Assembly: GCA_913030835.1 (NCBI GenBank)
Contig: CAJWDP010000001.1
Span: 124,001-188,000, forward strand
Direction of reading: 5' to 3'
Source of the DNA: an uncultured Flavobacteriales bacterium
GTDB lineage: Bacteria > Bacteroidota > Bacteroidia > Flavobacteriales_D > Parvicellaceae
DNA length: 64,000 nt
The first letter of the stretch is position 1. Each line of letters starts with the position of its first letter. Made by a program: the position numbers and the translations under genes. This document shows positions 3,320-55,771 of the stretch, piece by piece. The notes under the pieces were generated by a model. That model did not search any database. It was not told where the DNA came from and was given only the letters and a program-made list of their open reading frames with translations.

Positions 3320-3372
3320 TGTTTAACGTTTTTTCATTTTTGTTAAACATTTTGGCTCTTTTTGTGTTTAAC
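3320..3372 (+). promoter_or_regulatory. three TGTTTAAC half-sites upstream of rhodopsin
   Basis: TGTTTAAC occurs at 3320-3327, its exact reverse complement GTTAAACA at 3342-3349, and TGTTTAAC again at 3365-3372. Centre-to-centre distances are 22 and 23 bp, about two helical turns, so all three face the same side of the helix. The last copy ends 25 bp before the rhodopsin ATG. This arrangement suggests an operator for a dimeric or cooperative regulator. The regulator itself is not identified in the window. Confidence 0.5.
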
Positions 3373-3397
3373 TGATGAAAACTTAAAAAAATACACT

Positions 3398-4147
3398 ATG
3401 ATAACTTTATTAGCAGACGTTTCAAAAATTGCAACGGACGACTACGTGGGTTTCACTTTCTTTGTCGGTTGCATGGCTATGATGGCCGCTTCGGCATTTT
3501 TCTTTTTATCCATGAATAGCTTCGACTCAAAATGGAAAACCTCGATTCTAGTTTCTGGCCTAATCACATTTATTGCAGCTGTGCATTATTGGTATATGAG
3601 AGATTATTGGGGTGCCACTTATGATGCCGAAACTGGCACAGGTGATTCACCAGTCTTTTTTCGATATGTGGATTGGATATTGACTGTACCTCTTATGTGC
3701 GTTGAATTTTATCTAATTCTAAAAGCTGCGGGAGCAAAAAGATCCCTAATGTGGAGATTGATTATCCTTTCCGTAATAATGCTCGTAACCGGCTATTGGG
3801 GAGAGGCAGTCAATAGAGAACAGGCATGGCTTTGGGGTCTAGTTTCTGGCATCGCATATTTCGTAATTGTGTACGACATTTGGCTTGGTAAAGCGAAAGC
3901 ACTAGCTGTGAAAGCAGGCGGAGCGACTCTGAAAGCACACAAAACGCTTTGTTGGTTCGTTCTTGTTGGATGGGCGATCTATCCGATCGGATACATGGCA
4001 GGAACTCCAGGTTGGTACGAAGGAATTTTTGGTGGATTAGCCATGGACGTGATTTACAACATTGGTGACGCCATCAACAAAATTGGTTTCGGCTTAGTTG
4101 TTTACACGTTAGCAGTAAATAGTAGGGGTGATTCCGCTACTGCATAA
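3398..4147 (+). CDS. proteorhodopsin (light-driven outward proton pump)
   Basis: Seven-helix retinal protein of 249 residues from the ATG at 3398. An upstream in-frame TTG would add 12 polar residues and is less likely. Helix C carries RYVDWILTVP with D92 (proton acceptor, equals D97 of green proteorhodopsin), T96 and E103 (donor, equals E108): the DTE signature of H+ pumps. The spectral tuning position equivalent to 105 is M100, as in many flavobacterial green-absorbing forms. H63 matches the H75 partner of the acceptor. Helix G holds D224 and the Schiff-base lysine K228 in YNIGDAINKIGFGL. The retinal-synthesis gene blh is directly downstream. Confidence 0.96.
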   Translation: MITLLADVSKIATDDYVGFTFFVGCMAMMAASAFFFLSMNSFDSKWKTSILVSGLITFIAAVHYWYMRDYWGATYDAETGTGDSPVFFRYVDWILTVPLMCVEFYLILKAAGAKRSLMWRLIILSVIMLVTGYWGEAVNREQAWLWGLVSGIAYFVIVYDIWLGKAKALAVKAGGATLKAHKTLCWFVLVGWAIYPIGYMAGTPGWYEGIFGGLAMDVIYNIGDAINKIGFGLVVYTLAVNSRGDSATA

Positions 4148-5087
4148 TACAACTTTGAAAAATCGAGAGCCGATTCGTTTGGCTCTCGATTTTATTAAAA
4201 CAAGGCTGAATCATCTTCTCGTTCTAATATTCTCGGCCTTGTTTTTTTTTACTTCTCCACTTGAAGGAGTTTATACCCCGATCTGTATTTCTTTGATCGT
4301 ACTCTTGGGCATTCCTCACGGTGCCGCTGATCACCTGATCCACTCAAGTCTTAGTTCAAAAGCCAACTTAAAAAAGTACATTTTTAAATACATTGCCTTA
4401 GCATTTGGCTTTGGATTTTGGTGGGCTCTATATCCTGATAAAGCTCTTCTGTTTTTTGTTGCCTTAAGCACCTATCATTTCGGTCAAGAGGCCTTAGAAA
4501 ATCTGAAGGTGCGAGATATTCGATTTTGGGACATTGTAATATGGGGTAGTGTTGTGTTGCTTGGGCCACTAATCTTGAATTATACCCATTTAAAGACAAG
4601 CTTTGACTCAATGTCTTCGTCTCACTTACCGGACATCTCTCAATGGGTTCAAGTGTCGGTCGGGGTTGCATTAATTATGCTTGCGCTTTCTCATGCGTTC
4701 TTGTTGGCACTTTCCTATCGAATACAGCGTACACAGCTGATTCAGCTAATTTTACAATTAGCGATCATATCCACTTTATACTTGATTCTTCCTTTTTTGG
4801 TGGCTTTCACTGCCTACTTTATATTTTTTCACTCTTGGAATGCGTTCAAGCATCAGTACACTTGGCTTGCCTCTATCAATTCAAATTATAGCATAAAAAG
4901 ATTCGCAAAAGATTTGCTGCTATTCAGTTCCATCGCTATTGCAAGCTTAATTGCACTAATCTGTGCCTTTCGTCCAGATACTTGGGTAGGTTTAACCGTC
5001 TACTTGCTAATTGTAATATCGGTCATAACCTTGCCTCATACGCTACTCTTCGATCAGTTCTATAGCGCCAGAGCTAAACCTAAATAG
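4128..5087 (+). CDS. blh: Brp/Blh-family beta-carotene 15,15'-dioxygenase
   Basis: Integral membrane enzyme that cleaves beta-carotene to two retinals, the chromophore of the upstream rhodopsin. Conserved iron-ligand-type histidines are visible: GIPHGAADH (H64, H69), STYHFGQE (H117), HSWNAFKH (H235, H242) and LPHTLLFDQFY (H304). There are six or more hydrophobic segments, and 319 residues is normal. The start is uncertain. The GTG at 4128 overlaps the rhodopsin end by 20 bp. Any start before about residue 20 would be read through the hairpin at 4159-4193, and the only later in-frame candidates are weak TTG/CTG codons. No crt (beta-carotene synthesis) genes lie in the window. Confidence 0.93.
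   Translation: MIPLLHNTTLKNREPIRLALDFIKTRLNHLLVLIFSALFFFTSPLEGVYTPICISLIVLLGIPHGAADHLIHSSLSSKANLKKYIFKYIALAFGFGFWWALYPDKALLFFVALSTYHFGQEALENLKVRDIRFWDIVIWGSVVLLGPLILNYTHLKTSFDSMSSSHLPDISQWVQVSVGVALIMLALSHAFLLALSYRIQRTQLIQLILQLAIISTLYLILPFLVAFTAYFIFFHSWNAFKHQYTWLASINSNYSIKRFAKDLLLFSSIAIASLIALICAFRPDTWVGLTVYLLIVISVITLPHTLLFDQFYSARAKPK
4159..4197 (+). terminator. perfect 13-bp hairpin at the rhodopsin-blh junction
   Basis: Left arm AAAATCGAGAGCC (4159-4171), 9-nt loop, right arm GGCTCTCGATTTT (4181-4193), then ATTA. It begins 12 nt after the rhodopsin stop codon. The U-rich right arm resembles an intrinsic terminator, yet it lies inside the open reading frame of blh. It could limit read-through or stabilise the rhodopsin mRNA, giving unequal expression of pump and retinal enzyme. 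Confidence 0.75.
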
Positions 5088-51578: not shown

Positions 51579-51662
51579 TAATTTTCTATAGAGAAGCAAA
51601 TATAAAAGTTTAATGCAACCCTTTTTTTAAATTAGGAGTCTAACAAACAGAAGTGAATGGGA

Positions 51663-52196
51663 ATGACGGATCAGGACCTAATAAAAGAGTGTATTGATAA
51701 CAATCCGAAAGCCCAAAAAGAATTGTATGACAGGTTTGCTTCTAAAATGATGGGGGTATCCTACAGGTATGCCAGTAGCCAAGAAGAGGCAAAAGACATA
51801 CTACAGGATGCTTTCATAAAAGTGTTTGGACGGATAGGTTCGTTCAAAAAAGAAGGCTCTTTGGAAGGTTGGATTAGAAGAATTGTGGTTAACACTGCAC
51901 TTGACAGCATCAGAAAGCGGAAAAAAGACAAACAAAACGTTTCCCTAACTGAAGCTGAGCACCTTGCTTCAAACAAGGATTATATTATTGAAAACTTGAG
52001 CGCAGAAGATTTGCTACAGATGTTAAAAACGATCCCAATAGGCTACAGAACAGTGTTCAACCTTTATGCGATCGAGGGTTATTCGCACAAAGAGATAGCA
52101 GATTCATTAGGAATAACAGAGAATACATCTAAATCACAATACTCCAGAGCCAAAGCCTTTCTAAGAAACTTATTGGAACAATACGAAATAGATTAA
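51663..52196 (+). CDS. ECF-type RNA polymerase sigma factor
   Basis: A 177-residue group 4 sigma factor. Region 2 (about 5-70) has the pattern LYDRFASKMMGVSYRYASSQEEAKDILQDAFIKVF, and region 4 (about 120-170) GYRTVFNLYAIEGYSHKEIADSLGITENTSKSQYSRAKAFLR. The second ATG at 51663 gives the family-like MTDQDLIKECI; an ATG 6 bp earlier is possible. The next gene starts immediately after its stop and encodes a membrane protein that is probably its anti-sigma regulator. Confidence 0.95.
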   Translation: MTDQDLIKECIDNNPKAQKELYDRFASKMMGVSYRYASSQEEAKDILQDAFIKVFGRIGSFKKEGSLEGWIRRIVVNTALDSIRKRKKDKQNVSLTEAEHLASNKDYIIENLSAEDLLQMLKTIPIGYRTVFNLYAIEGYSHKEIADSLGITENTSKSQYSRAKAFLRNLLEQYEID

Positions 52197-53321
52197 TTGA
52201 AGGACAAAAAGGAAATAGAACAAATAGTAAAGGAGAAGTTTGAAAATTTCCAGCCAGACGTGCCGGATTCATTATGGTCTAGCATTGAAAGCAGTATCTC
52301 AACTACCCCTCCTTTATCTGCCCCAACGCTTTCTGTTGGTTCAAAAATTATTGCTGTTGCCGTAGGAGTTTCAATAATAATAGGATCGGCTTTAATAATT
52401 TACAACAACCAGGGTGAGGATGTTGCGGTTGCGGCAACAATCGGCCAGCAAACCGAATCAAAAGTACCTGAGGAAGATAAATCAACCCCACCCACCGAAA
52501 TCAACACCAAAATAATATCCGTTGAAACATCCGAGAACTGGAAGGAAATACAATCACCTAAGGAGGTCAGAATAAAGGTGATTTCACCCAAAGAAGAAAC
52601 CGAAAGGCGAAAACACAGCAGTGTTGCTGATATGCACATCAGCAAATCGTCAAGAAAGGTAATAACACTTCAAGACCTCGACAAGATGCAAAACACGGAT
52701 TCAGACGAACAAGGCGCAGATCAATTAGATAGTGTAACAGTTATAGTCGAAAACCCAGAAGAAAACGCCCCCCCATTTGCTTCAATAATAGCATCTGTTG
52801 TTGGGGGGAATGCACCATTGGAAGTTGAGTTTGACCAACAATCAGCGAATGGAACGGTCAGCTGGAACTTTGGAGACGGAAATTCATCCAGCGAAAGATC
52901 CCCAACTTATATCTATACCAACCCAGGCACCTATTACGTACAACTGTCGATCCAAACAGAAAATGGGGATTTAGCTTTTGACGAAAGAATGATCGAAGTT
53001 TTGGAACCAGACAATGTAGAAGAACTTCGTAATGACAAAAGATCCCAAATTACTTCAAAACCAAATGTATTTACACCAAATGGAGATGGAATAAACGACT
53101 ACATGTCGGTTGGAGCTGAAAACATGGAAAGCTTCCATTTTCTTCTTCTAGACATGAATACAAATAAGATCATTTTTGAAACAAGTAATCCTGCCTTTCA
53201 ATGGGATGGAACCCTATCCACAGGCGTTACAATTTCTAAGGGAACTTACATTTACATTATTCGAGCAAAAGGACATGACGGTCAAAAATTTGACGAATCC
53301 GGCGCGTTGAGCGTACAGTAA
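52197..53321 (+). CDS. membrane protein with anti-sigma-like N-terminus, PKD and CHU_C domains
   Basis: A 374-residue protein (TTG start adjacent to the sigma stop). A short cytoplasmic segment (EKFENFQPDVPDSLWSSIES, about 12-33) matches the start of Bacteroidota anti-sigma-like proteins. One transmembrane helix at about 48-68, a disordered acidic region to about 175, a PKD domain at about 195-285 (VSWNFGDGNSSSERSPTYIY), and a C-terminal gliding-motility-associated/CHU_C domain at about 295-374 (PNVFTPNGDGINDYM). Anti-sigma function is inferred from position and topology. Confidence 0.82.
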   Translation: MKDKKEIEQIVKEKFENFQPDVPDSLWSSIESSISTTPPLSAPTLSVGSKIIAVAVGVSIIIGSALIIYNNQGEDVAVAATIGQQTESKVPEEDKSTPPTEINTKIISVETSENWKEIQSPKEVRIKVISPKEETERRKHSSVADMHISKSSRKVITLQDLDKMQNTDSDEQGADQLDSVTVIVENPEENAPPFASIIASVVGGNAPLEVEFDQQSANGTVSWNFGDGNSSSERSPTYIYTNPGTYYVQLSIQTENGDLAFDERMIEVLEPDNVEELRNDKRSQITSKPNVFTPNGDGINDYMSVGAENMESFHFLLLDMNTNKIIFETSNPAFQWDGTLSTGVTISKGTYIYIIRAKGHDGQKFDESGALSVQ

Positions 53322-53440
53322 ATGCCAGTAGCCAAACCCATTAACCATCCATGGTTTCAACAGTTCAATATGAATGACTTTATGTTGAAGCAATTGACAT
53401 CAAGACACAGTTTTTTACCTTGTCAATAACTGTGTTGAAA

Positions 53441-55771
53441 ATGACAAGACTTTTCGTTCTTTTATTCTTTTTGCCCCGGATCTTGATCGCGGGCGACACC
53501 GTGCAAATAGCCTTTATTCCCCAAGGGGGTTTTTTCCAAGACGAACTGCAAGTCACACTGTCTTTTCCTGCCGGATCAAATAAAATATATTATACCCTGG
53601 ACGGCAGCATTCCCAGCAAAGCATCGAAAAGATATTCTGAACCAATACAGATCAAAAAAACAACAGTAATTAGAGCGATTGCTTACAGCGATGACGGAAG
53701 AACAAAAACACAAACCAACACATATTTATTTGGCAGAAGTTTCACACTGCCGGTAGTGTCGATTGCGACAGACCCGGATAACTTTTTTGGTTATGAAAGG
53801 GGAATTTATGCAAAGGGGTGCTGCGCGGACACTGTGCCACCGTATTATGGAGCAAATTTTTGGAAAGGTTGGGAGCGACCAATTAACATTGAGTATTTTG
53901 AACCGGACGGGAAACAGGCCATAAATCAACAGGCAGGAGCAAGAATATTTGGAGGATTCAGCAAGGGGCTACCCATGAAATCGCTATCAATTTTTGCGAG
54001 AAAAAAATATGGCAAAAAGCACTTTAAGCATCAACTGTTTAAAGAAAAGCCGGATATAAAAAAATACAAGTCATTCATTTTAAGGAATTCCGGTGGAGAC
54101 TTCAACAACACACATTTTCGAGATGCTCTAATAACCCAGCTAACAAGGCCAACCGAACTACCCATTCAAGCCTATCAACCAACTGTAGTTTTTATCAACG
54201 GGAACTACTGGGGCATTCACAATGCAAGAGAAAAACTCAACGAACACTATTTCAAGTTCAACTTCGGTGCAGACGAAGACTCTATAGACTTAATGAAGCA
54301 TAGAAACGACATTCAGCTGGGCACAAGGGACAAATACAAAGAGCTGAAAACATTTATCACAGAACACGACTTGTCAAAAAACGCCCACATTTATGAGTTG
54401 AACAAAAAGATGAACATTGACAATTATATTGATCACCACATCATACAAGTCTACGCTGACAATGGAGATGCGGGGGGCAATATAAGATATTGGAGACCAC
54501 AAAGAGAAAATGGGCGTTGGAATTGGGTTTTGTTTGACACAGACCTTGGTATGGGCATAGGAAGTAGAAAAGCATACAAAACAAACACCCTGAAAGAAAT
54601 GACCGAAATGAGTGATGAAAAATGGCCAAACCCGGCCTGGTCAACATTTATCATCAGAAATCTTTTAGAAAATGACAGCATAAAGCAAGTCTATATCCTT
54701 AGGTTTTTAAACCATCTCAACACGATTTACTCAGAAAAATCGGTTTGCGCGAAAATAGACTCACTACACCAATTACTCTCAGAAGAGATGGTATACCACA
54801 AAAAAAGATGGGGAGGAAGAATCACAACCTGGAACAAGAACGTGGAACGACTGAAAACGTTTGCTCGGAACAGACCCCACTTTATAAGAGAGCACATGCA
54901 GGAAGTATTTGATTTAGGAGACACAATCAACATAGAAGTCACAAAACCATCAGCCGGAGCTAAAAACCTTTGGTTTAACAACATTCAAGTTGATGATACA
55001 CTAACCGGGGTTTATTTTAAAAAAACACCATTATTGGTAGAGGTAGAAGTTGAGGCCGGATTCCAACATGTAGGGTGGAAAGGATCAACCAGCACAAGAT
55101 TGAGAACAACAATTTACCCCGAAAGCGACCTTTTAATAGAGCCGAGACTCAAAAAATCTGACACCAGCGAATATTGGGAAAAAGTAGTGTTTAGCGAAAT
55201 TAGATTCTGCGAAGATAATGATCGACCTTCTGGCGACTGGGTTGAATTACGAAACACTTCACAGCAAAACATAATATTGGATAACTGGAAAATAGCCACA
55301 AGTAAAAACACAAAAAAGCGACAAATTTCGGCAACTACCATTTCCCCCAGCGGATTCCTTGTTCTGGCAAAGGATAGCGCTGCTTTTTGTGAATTAATGC
55401 CAGAAGTCAATCGAGAAAATGTGGTATCCTGCAAACGGATGAAACTCAAAAAGTCAGGCTTCCACCTTTTTTTATTTGATGGAGAAGGTGCTCTTGTAGA
55501 CTCAATAAGAGTTGACCCGACGAATGCTGAATGCAAAACCATAAGTTTAATTGAACCAACCCACAACGATCACACCACAGCATCATGGGAATATTTACCA
55601 GTATCAACGCCGAACAGCATCAACACCACAGAAAAGATAAAAAAAGCAAAAGCGGAAGAAAATGAAAAACAAAAAAGACGAACTACTCTAATAACAACAA
55701 TCCTGATCATCCTTGGAGTGAGTTTATTAATACTACATCGTTTAAGAAAAAAGAGCAGGTCGGTTTTATAG
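53441..55771 (+). CDS. CotH kinase family protein with lamin-tail domain
   Basis: A 776-residue secreted and C-terminally anchored protein (signal ending RILIAG; ATG at 53441). A chitobiase-like beta domain at about 25-90 (YYTLDGSIPSKASKRYSEPI). CotH kinase at about 100-490, with RNSGGDFNNTHFRDAL, VFINGNYWGIHNAREKLNEHY and LFDTDLGMGIGSRKA. A lamin-tail domain at about 590-690 (VFSEIRFCEDNDRPSGDWVEL). A C-terminal helix (TTLITTILIILGVSLLIL) ends in basic residues. The family phosphorylates spore-coat proteins in Bacillus; the substrate here is unknown. Confidence 0.92.
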   Translation: MTRLFVLLFFLPRILIAGDTVQIAFIPQGGFFQDELQVTLSFPAGSNKIYYTLDGSIPSKASKRYSEPIQIKKTTVIRAIAYSDDGRTKTQTNTYLFGRSFTLPVVSIATDPDNFFGYERGIYAKGCCADTVPPYYGANFWKGWERPINIEYFEPDGKQAINQQAGARIFGGFSKGLPMKSLSIFARKKYGKKHFKHQLFKEKPDIKKYKSFILRNSGGDFNNTHFRDALITQLTRPTELPIQAYQPTVVFINGNYWGIHNAREKLNEHYFKFNFGADEDSIDLMKHRNDIQLGTRDKYKELKTFITEHDLSKNAHIYELNKKMNIDNYIDHHIIQVYADNGDAGGNIRYWRPQRENGRWNWVLFDTDLGMGIGSRKAYKTNTLKEMTEMSDEKWPNPAWSTFIIRNLLENDSIKQVYILRFLNHLNTIYSEKSVCAKIDSLHQLLSEEMVYHKKRWGGRITTWNKNVERLKTFARNRPHFIREHMQEVFDLGDTINIEVTKPSAGAKNLWFNNIQVDDTLTGVYFKKTPLLVEVEVEAGFQHVGWKGSTSTRLRTTIYPESDLLIEPRLKKSDTSEYWEKVVFSEIRFCEDNDRPSGDWVELRNTSQQNIILDNWKIATSKNTKKRQISATTISPSGFLVLAKDSAAFCELMPEVNRENVVSCKRMKLKKSGFHLFLFDGEGALVDSIRVDPTNAECKTISLIEPTHNDHTTASWEYLPVSTPNSINTTEKIKKAKAEENEKQKRRTTLITTILIILGVSLLILHRLRKKSRSVL

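Follow-up and report, generated by a model that had tools for sequence, protein, structure and literature searches.

In a window of 64,000 nucleotides (the whole stretch of DNA analysed here, from an uncultured Flavobacteriales bacterium), an ECF sigma factor gene is followed directly by a gene for a membrane-anchored partner ending in a PKD domain and a domain that resembles the C-terminal sorting domain (CTD) of type B cargo of the type IX secretion system (T9SS). We propose, with slightly better than even confidence, that this partner is a Dma-like trans-envelope anti-sigma factor that couples the handling of T9SS cargo to the transcription of cargo genes by a logic resembling that of FlgM. 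The pairing of the two genes, the topology of the partner, the homology of its N-terminal domain, the autoregulatory promoter, a cargo-rich regulon and the loss of the NRWG motif are supported by computation. What is new is the recurrence of the sigma factor's promoter, with its spacing unchanged, in front of exported proteins (mainly T9SS type B cargo) in relatives and in front of three surface proteins with PKD or CHU_C domains in the same genome, together with anti-sigma CTDs that lack NRWG. The features of the locus are as follows.

51614–51642, + strand: ECF-type promoter TGCAAC-N18-GTCTA of the sigma/anti-sigma operon (exact match, 11/11 positions)
51663–52196, + strand: ECF sigma factor, 177 aa (Pfam r2/r4, conserved start)
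52197–53321, + strand: transmembrane anti-sigma partner with PKD and CTD-like domains, 374 aa, TTG start
52197–52334, + strand: cytoplasmic anti-sigma domain, two helices, residues 1–46, with invariant W27 (alignment, profile match, models)
52344–52406, + strand: single transmembrane helix, residues 50–70 (hydropathy of relatives, model helix)
52407–52763, + strand: low-complexity, probably disordered periplasmic tether, residues 71–189 (pLDDT, lengths in relatives)
52764–53006, + strand: PKD domain, residues 190–270 (Pfam PKD_4, PKD folds in the PDB)
53046–53318, + strand: CHU_C / type B CTD-like domain, residues 284–374, without NRWG (Pfam CHU_C, motif test)

The longer sigma open reading frame (ORF) begins at 51657 (51657–52196); translation probably begins at the ATG at 51663, since the methionine at position 3 of that frame is near-invariant in 31 aligned sigma factors. 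Pfam recognizes Sigma70_r2 (5e-15) and r4_2 (2e-15) in the window sigma, and among the 25 NCBIfam models listed for the pair, the general ECF superfamily model alone was above its cut-off. The TTG of the partner (52197) directly follows the TAA of the sigma gene. Within the partner, Pfam places PKD_4 at residues 190–258 (1.2e-11) and CHU_C (PF13585) at residues 288–364 (47.6 bits, cut-off 27), and the NCBIfam model of the type B sorting domain, TIGR04131, scored 29.4 bits, under its cut-off of 35. Residues 1–46 matched none of the Pfam anti-sigma models. A conserved polar domain precedes the earliest hydrophobic stretch, which starts near residue 50, and the N-terminal Sec signal peptide of T9SS cargo was not seen by hydropathy, alignment or model, which stood in for a dedicated program. 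AlphaFold, supplied with 14 aligned sequences, predicted helices at residues 4–16 and 24–34, a long hydrophobic helix at 50–70 and two confident beta domains, and left residues 35–191 without confident structure (pLDDT <50). The PKD model resembles PKD domains in the PDB with a target-normalised TM-score of ~0.8. A sequence-only reading had described an ECF sigma factor paired with a PKD and CHU_C membrane protein, and both ORFs lie where it placed them; the cytoplasmic start, single membrane helix and periplasmic PKD and CTD that it assigned were borne out by Pfam, AlphaFold and relatives.

The arrangement is well conserved. With the first 101 residues of the partner as query, 42 of 100 related genomes were matched at E 0.01, and each of the 29 loci retrieved from genomes other than that of the window has a sigma ORF directly upstream of the partner, at an intergenic distance of −23 to +28 bp (29 relatives and a paralogous pair in the same genome). 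Across 31 partners (that of the window, the 29 relatives and the paralog), W27 of the N-domain is invariant; CHU_C occurs in 29 and PKD_4 in 20, the latter being absent from 11. The stretch between membrane helix and PKD domain in relatives has a median of approximately 115 aa (n=24). Two loci keep the pair without CHU_C: in L040, the partner carries an outer-membrane barrel signature, and in L046, it is short and has no periplasmic domain. A chance neighbourhood of sigma and partner is ruled out by the 29/29 adjacency. The earlier reading's view of the layout as odd holds for the type of protein and not for the genome, the layout being widespread in the order.

The alignment of sigma factors, used to scan 84,980 species genomes, yielded 80 named loci, the nearest of which belong to Flavobacteriales (e.g., Fluviicola and Crocinitomicaceae). 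The 78 downstream proteins of these loci (no ORF was found downstream at L096 and L099, and just a stub at L101 and L115) include 13 with CHU_C, 30 with OMP_b-brl_2 and 15 with OMP_b-brl, where one protein may count under both barrel families. When the N-domain of CHU_C-type partners was compared with that of 22 barrel-type relatives, hhalign returned a probability of 98.5% (E 3e-15); by this profile comparison, the two kinds of N-domain are homologous. A quick tree of 111 sigma factors places the window sigma in a 32-member group in which all partners are of the CHU_C type (SH-aLRT 92). On this tree, the CHU_C label needs five changes, but the starred branches force only one; repeated capture of CHU_C by anti-sigma factors is possible. 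By eye, some partners of related sigmas (L085, L087, L088, L092, L098, L100, L113 and L129) apparently contain two tandem W-containing anti-sigma domains ahead of the membrane helix.

Structural models bear on whether the N-domain binds the sigma factor. Its helices have a pLDDT of ~58 when modelled alone and ~93–96 when modelled in one chain with the sigma. The sigma in this fused model resembles anti-sigma-bound SigW, CnrH and RpoE (TM-score 0.57–0.68 by target length) more closely than polymerase-bound sigmas (~0.31–0.45). A direct linker was imposed in the fused model and may force proximity, and the model lends weak support to binding of the sigma by the N-domain. The fold alignment leaves out the L057 sigma (stop codon). 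In number, the two predicted helices (4–16 and 24–34) are like those of class II (CnrY-type) anti-sigma domains, whereas class I (ASDI) domains form a three-helix bundle with a fourth helix.

The CTD-like domain departs from the sorting signals of cargo at one motif. NRWG or a close form stands on the strand ahead of WDG in 22/22 cargo CTDs from the same genome and from the predicted targets described below, the hallmark being defined from the cargo CTDs examined in this analysis; at that place it was found in 0/42 anti-sigma CTDs, a count that leaves out L040 and L046. Six anti-sigma CTDs match a looser pattern, only after WDG. PNxFTPNGDGxND and WDG are kept in the anti-sigma CTDs, as is a C-terminal basic residue in many of them; a CTD tree had too few columns and resolved little. 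Because NRWG is lost here and kept in all of the cargo CTDs, the anti-sigma CTD appears to be a derivative of the type B CTD that has diverged into a sensor. It may still dock, and it is probably not exported as ordinary cargo; we reject a plain secretion signal on account of the NRWG loss.

Published work describes how working CTDs of this type behave. Secretion of Flavobacterium johnsoniae SprB depends on every one of five conserved motifs in its CTD, and the PorP/SprF shuttles that serve type B CTDs are cognate to them (PMC12618676). In Porphyromonas gingivalis, one protein with a type B CTD retains that domain and is held by a PorP barrel, and SprB was found bound to SprF (PMC9143113). NRWG is presumably one of the five SprB motifs. 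Because it is missing in 42/42 anti-sigma CTDs, binding to the shuttle or translocon may be lost.

Promoter analysis provides a view of what the sigma factor may control. The window promoter (G000:C1:175614-175642 in the coordinates of its own genome) has counterparts upstream of most related sigmas: 75 of 111 upstream regions match at least 9 of 11 positions, as against 4.5% of mononucleotide shuffles, an excess from which the operon is probably autoregulated. Across the genome that holds the window, the loose core GCAAC-N18-GTC is not in excess (67 matches vs 87 in the reversed control), and exact TGCAAC-N17..19-GTCTA gave 4 matches vs 4 reversed, of which the self-promoter alone is convincing. 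A further form, GCAACYTTT-N13..14-GTC, gave 5 matches, two of them upstream of CHU_C genes.

Since the motif shows no genome-wide excess, the regulon in this genome rests on promoter placement. Six of the 67 loose matches are so placed (intergenic, with an ORF start within 200 bp). The first is that of the sigma itself. Two of the others precede CHU_C proteins, one of 673 aa and one of 752 aa that also has PKD. A third, nearly identical to the sigma promoter, precedes a DUF7948 and PKD protein of 1176 aa that is cut by the contig end. The last two precede a lipoprotein-like protein (122 aa) and a response regulator at a distance of 135 bp. Pfam was applied to the first four of these five proteins. 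None of the six promoter-placed matches precedes a gene of the T9SS machine. The genome holds 36 CHU_C matches above cut-off, anti-sigmas included. The DUF7948/PKD target recurs in one of the relatives (G063), where CHU_C is visible.

In relatives, the strict motif TGCAACYTTT-N14-GTCT, searched in 29 of the 42 matching genomes, gave 34 matches in 24 genomes, compared with 4 for the reversed control and 0 in the same 29 when a base was added to the spacer. Sixteen of the 34 are the sigma's own promoter (14 read directly, two through identity with the L022 and L037 upstream regions). Among the 18 non-self matches, 14 have an ORF no more than 100 bp away, and the start of each of these ORFs resembles a signal peptide by eye. 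Eight of these ORFs carry Pfam CHU_C, and two are cut by contig ends, one inside a recognisable CTD and the other being a PKD/SprB-repeat protein; a 418-aa Recep_L protein and a 148-aa protein are also among the 14. The other four non-self matches stand at no exported gene (aspartokinase at 180 bp, a MutY-like gene at 132 bp, and two with none). Eight CHU_C proteins in 14 corresponds to p ~7e-11 at a 2% base rate in a binomial calculation in which some targets are orthologous and matches are not fully independent; the other base rate used was 36 CHU_C genes of 2,800, the gene number being assumed. Position 7 of the motif (C or T) agrees between self-promoter and target in 10 of 11 genomes, from letters entered by hand. 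The remaining two of the 14 targets (L266 and L267), from two genomes, are small secreted-looking orthologs of 124 and 130 aa without a Pfam family. Their 28-base promoter matches are identical, and they may be a conserved regulon member.

A generic ECF promoter is ruled out by the 34 strict matches in 29 relatives and by the 18 non-self matches, of which none precedes another sigma gene. For comparison, a search of 15 genomes of non-CHU_C loci with GCAGCAT-N13-TTGTCTA gave 8 matches, all upstream of ECF sigma genes. From these promoter matches, the sigma seems to control surface proteins that are exported, mainly as T9SS type B cargo; the targets were found by likeness to the sigma's own promoter, and another ECF sigma of the same specificity could drive them.

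Gene neighbourhoods supply a further link to T9SS. The paralogous pair of the same genome lies at ~25.1–45.2 kb of contig C7 (L005, L189 and L291) and has a CHU_C-type anti-sigma with two PKD domains. Downstream on the same strand are CHU_C genes of 1785, 1494 and 967 aa, followed by a PorP/SprF gene (7e-36) and a 1241-aa CHU_C gene. L102 (3501–6608), from a Bacteroidales metagenome-assembled genome, has a PorP/SprF gene (5e-58) directly behind its sigma and CHU_C anti-sigma genes, and at L110 and L055 the next gene encodes a PKD or Ig_7 surface protein. The window pair itself is flanked by genes for an M28 peptidase, a thioredoxin-like protein, CotH and DUF3078, and has no adjoining PorP/SprF or CHU_C gene. 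SprA, the T9SS translocon, was found in 30 of 30 genomes tested. The link to T9SS suspected from the sequence is stronger than could be seen from the sequence alone, given the cargo regulon, the PorP/SprF linkage and the SprA count. The adjoining CotH-kinase protein (53438–55771) has chitobiase-type C-terminal and lamin-tail domains by Pfam and, by eye, a hydrophobic stretch close to its C-terminus. Elsewhere in the window (3362–5087), a proteorhodopsin-like gene is followed directly by a Brp/Blh-like gene, again as judged by eye.

Several known systems resemble the pair in part. Members of the Dma family, whose genes adjoin those of ECF21 sigmas, have an N-terminal anti-sigma domain, a transmembrane helix, a long disordered tether and a C-terminal barrel (PMC13088901). 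The window partner likewise has an adjacent Bacteroidota ECF sigma, an N-terminal anti-sigma domain, one transmembrane helix, a long disordered tether and a C-terminal envelope domain, and its N-domain homology was established against the 22 barrel-type relatives, Dma1 itself being outside that comparison. Unlike Dma, it shows no C-terminal beta-barrel by Pfam or AlphaFold, but a PKD and type B CTD-like domain. The Dma targets are vesiculation and polysaccharide-utilisation genes, whereas those predicted here are T9SS cargo; the Dma paper (PMC13088901) does not mention "type IX". With type B cargo such as SprB and its PorP/SprF shuttles (PMC12618676, PMC9143113), the partner shares the CHU_C fold and most landmarks, but it has a cytoplasmic N-domain and a membrane anchor, no signal peptide that we could see and no NRWG, and the window pair has no adjoining shuttle gene. 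Because the barrel of Dma and the NRWG and signal peptide of cargo are missing, the CHU_C anti-sigma is best counted, on its domain content, as a Dma-like type that is neither Dma nor T9SS cargo.

The PorA / PorXY-SigP circuit of P. gingivalis likewise has, in T9SS control, an ECF sigma with a CTD protein acting upstream of it; PorA, however, is a CTD-bearing surface protein in its own right that acts through PorY/PorX, and SigP drives T9SS machine genes in a published model that, as excerpted, has no anti-sigma (PMC7712824). In Flavobacterium psychrophilum, SM6 resembles the present case in that ECF-type promoters are common to a sigma/anti-sigma pair and T9SS genes, but the targets are the machine genes GldN and PorU (PMC9723704). 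No CTD-bearing anti-sigma was found in the open-licence literature, which was represented mostly by titles and the openings of abstracts.

The mechanism that we propose would run as follows. The two-helix N-domain would hold the sigma in the cytoplasm and thereby inhibit it, while the single helix spans the inner membrane and a tether of ~120 residues carries the PKD and CTD-like domains across the periplasm. There, the CTD-like domain would sense how type B cargo is being handled. The simplest way would be to dock on the same outer-membrane component, a PorP/SprF-type shuttle or translocon, that receives cargo CTDs. When this contact changes, the sigma would be released, probably by proteolysis, and the freed sigma would transcribe its own operon and exported surface-protein genes, chiefly those of T9SS type B cargo. 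FlgM, the anti-sigma of sigma-28, bears the signal of the machine whose cargo genes that sigma transcribes; it is soluble and wholly exported through the flagellar type III system, whereas the window partner is membrane-anchored. What the two would share is an anti-sigma that bears the export signal of its sigma's cargo, or a derivative of that signal. As the predicted targets are cargo, we lean towards a sigma that is set free while the export route has room for it.

The main competitor to this proposal, which we consider unlikely yet weightier than the other alternatives, accepts a Dma-like anti-sigma but takes the PKD and CTD-like module as an ordinary sensor of a periplasmic ligand, a glycan or envelope stress. 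The domain would have been borrowed for its fold, T9SS would stand outside the signalling, and cargo genes would be one output among others. The lack of NRWG in all 42 anti-sigma CTDs, the absence of PKD from 11 of 31 partners and of CHU_C from 2, and the barrel or short partners beside related sigmas all agree with such a sensor; it accounts poorly for the retention of CHU_C throughout the 32-row sigma clade, for predicted targets that are T9SS cargo, and for the PorP/SprF linkage in L102 and in the paralog cluster. The partner might instead be a surface protein that sits beside a sigma gene by chance and is no anti-sigma. The silence of the Pfam anti-sigma models on residues 1–46 is all that speaks for this; set against the 29/29 adjacency, an N-domain common to barrel-type partners and predicted helices that gain confidence with the sigma, it is highly improbable.

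Two further explanations keep the T9SS connection and differ in how it works. The sequence-only reading held that the sigma is released when secretion is blocked: unengaged or accumulated CTDs at a stalled T9SS would make the anti-sigma let go. The anatomy and the T9SS link serve this reading as well as ours, but the predicted targets are cargo rather than machine, chaperone or protease genes, with no machine gene at any of the six promoter-placed matches. Because making extra cargo during an export block would be counter-productive and would worsen the block, this direction found no support, and we regard it as quite unlikely. Somewhat less probable still is a CTD that works as a sorting signal, such that the partner is cleaved near the membrane, its outer part is exported as type B cargo and this export frees the sigma. 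The fold and other landmarks are indeed kept; the loss of NRWG and the TIGR04131 score under cut-off point the other way, as does the need for each of the five SprB CTD motifs in secretion reported in PMC12618676, if NRWG belongs among them.

The Dma-like anti-sigma that we favour can be taken one step further, to a T9SS checkpoint. A tamed cargo tag and real type B cargo would compete there for the outer-membrane shuttle or translocon, transcription of cargo genes would wait for free export capacity, and the shuttle barrel would non-covalently replace the fused barrel of Dma. We offer this version tentatively, as something that may well prove wrong. If the shuttle barrel does stand in for the fused barrel, both systems would form one class of envelope-spanning tethers. 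Only approximately 6% of Bacteroidota ECF sigmas neighbour a class I anti-sigma (PMC7406223). The present family adds an anti-sigma type with a defined promoter, a defined target set and a domain that lends itself to tests in known T9SS mutants, and bears on what the recently found Dma anti-sigma factors sense. It bears equally on how Bacteroidota match very large surface adhesins to T9SS capacity; the pair suggests that cells match the production of surface proteins to their export.
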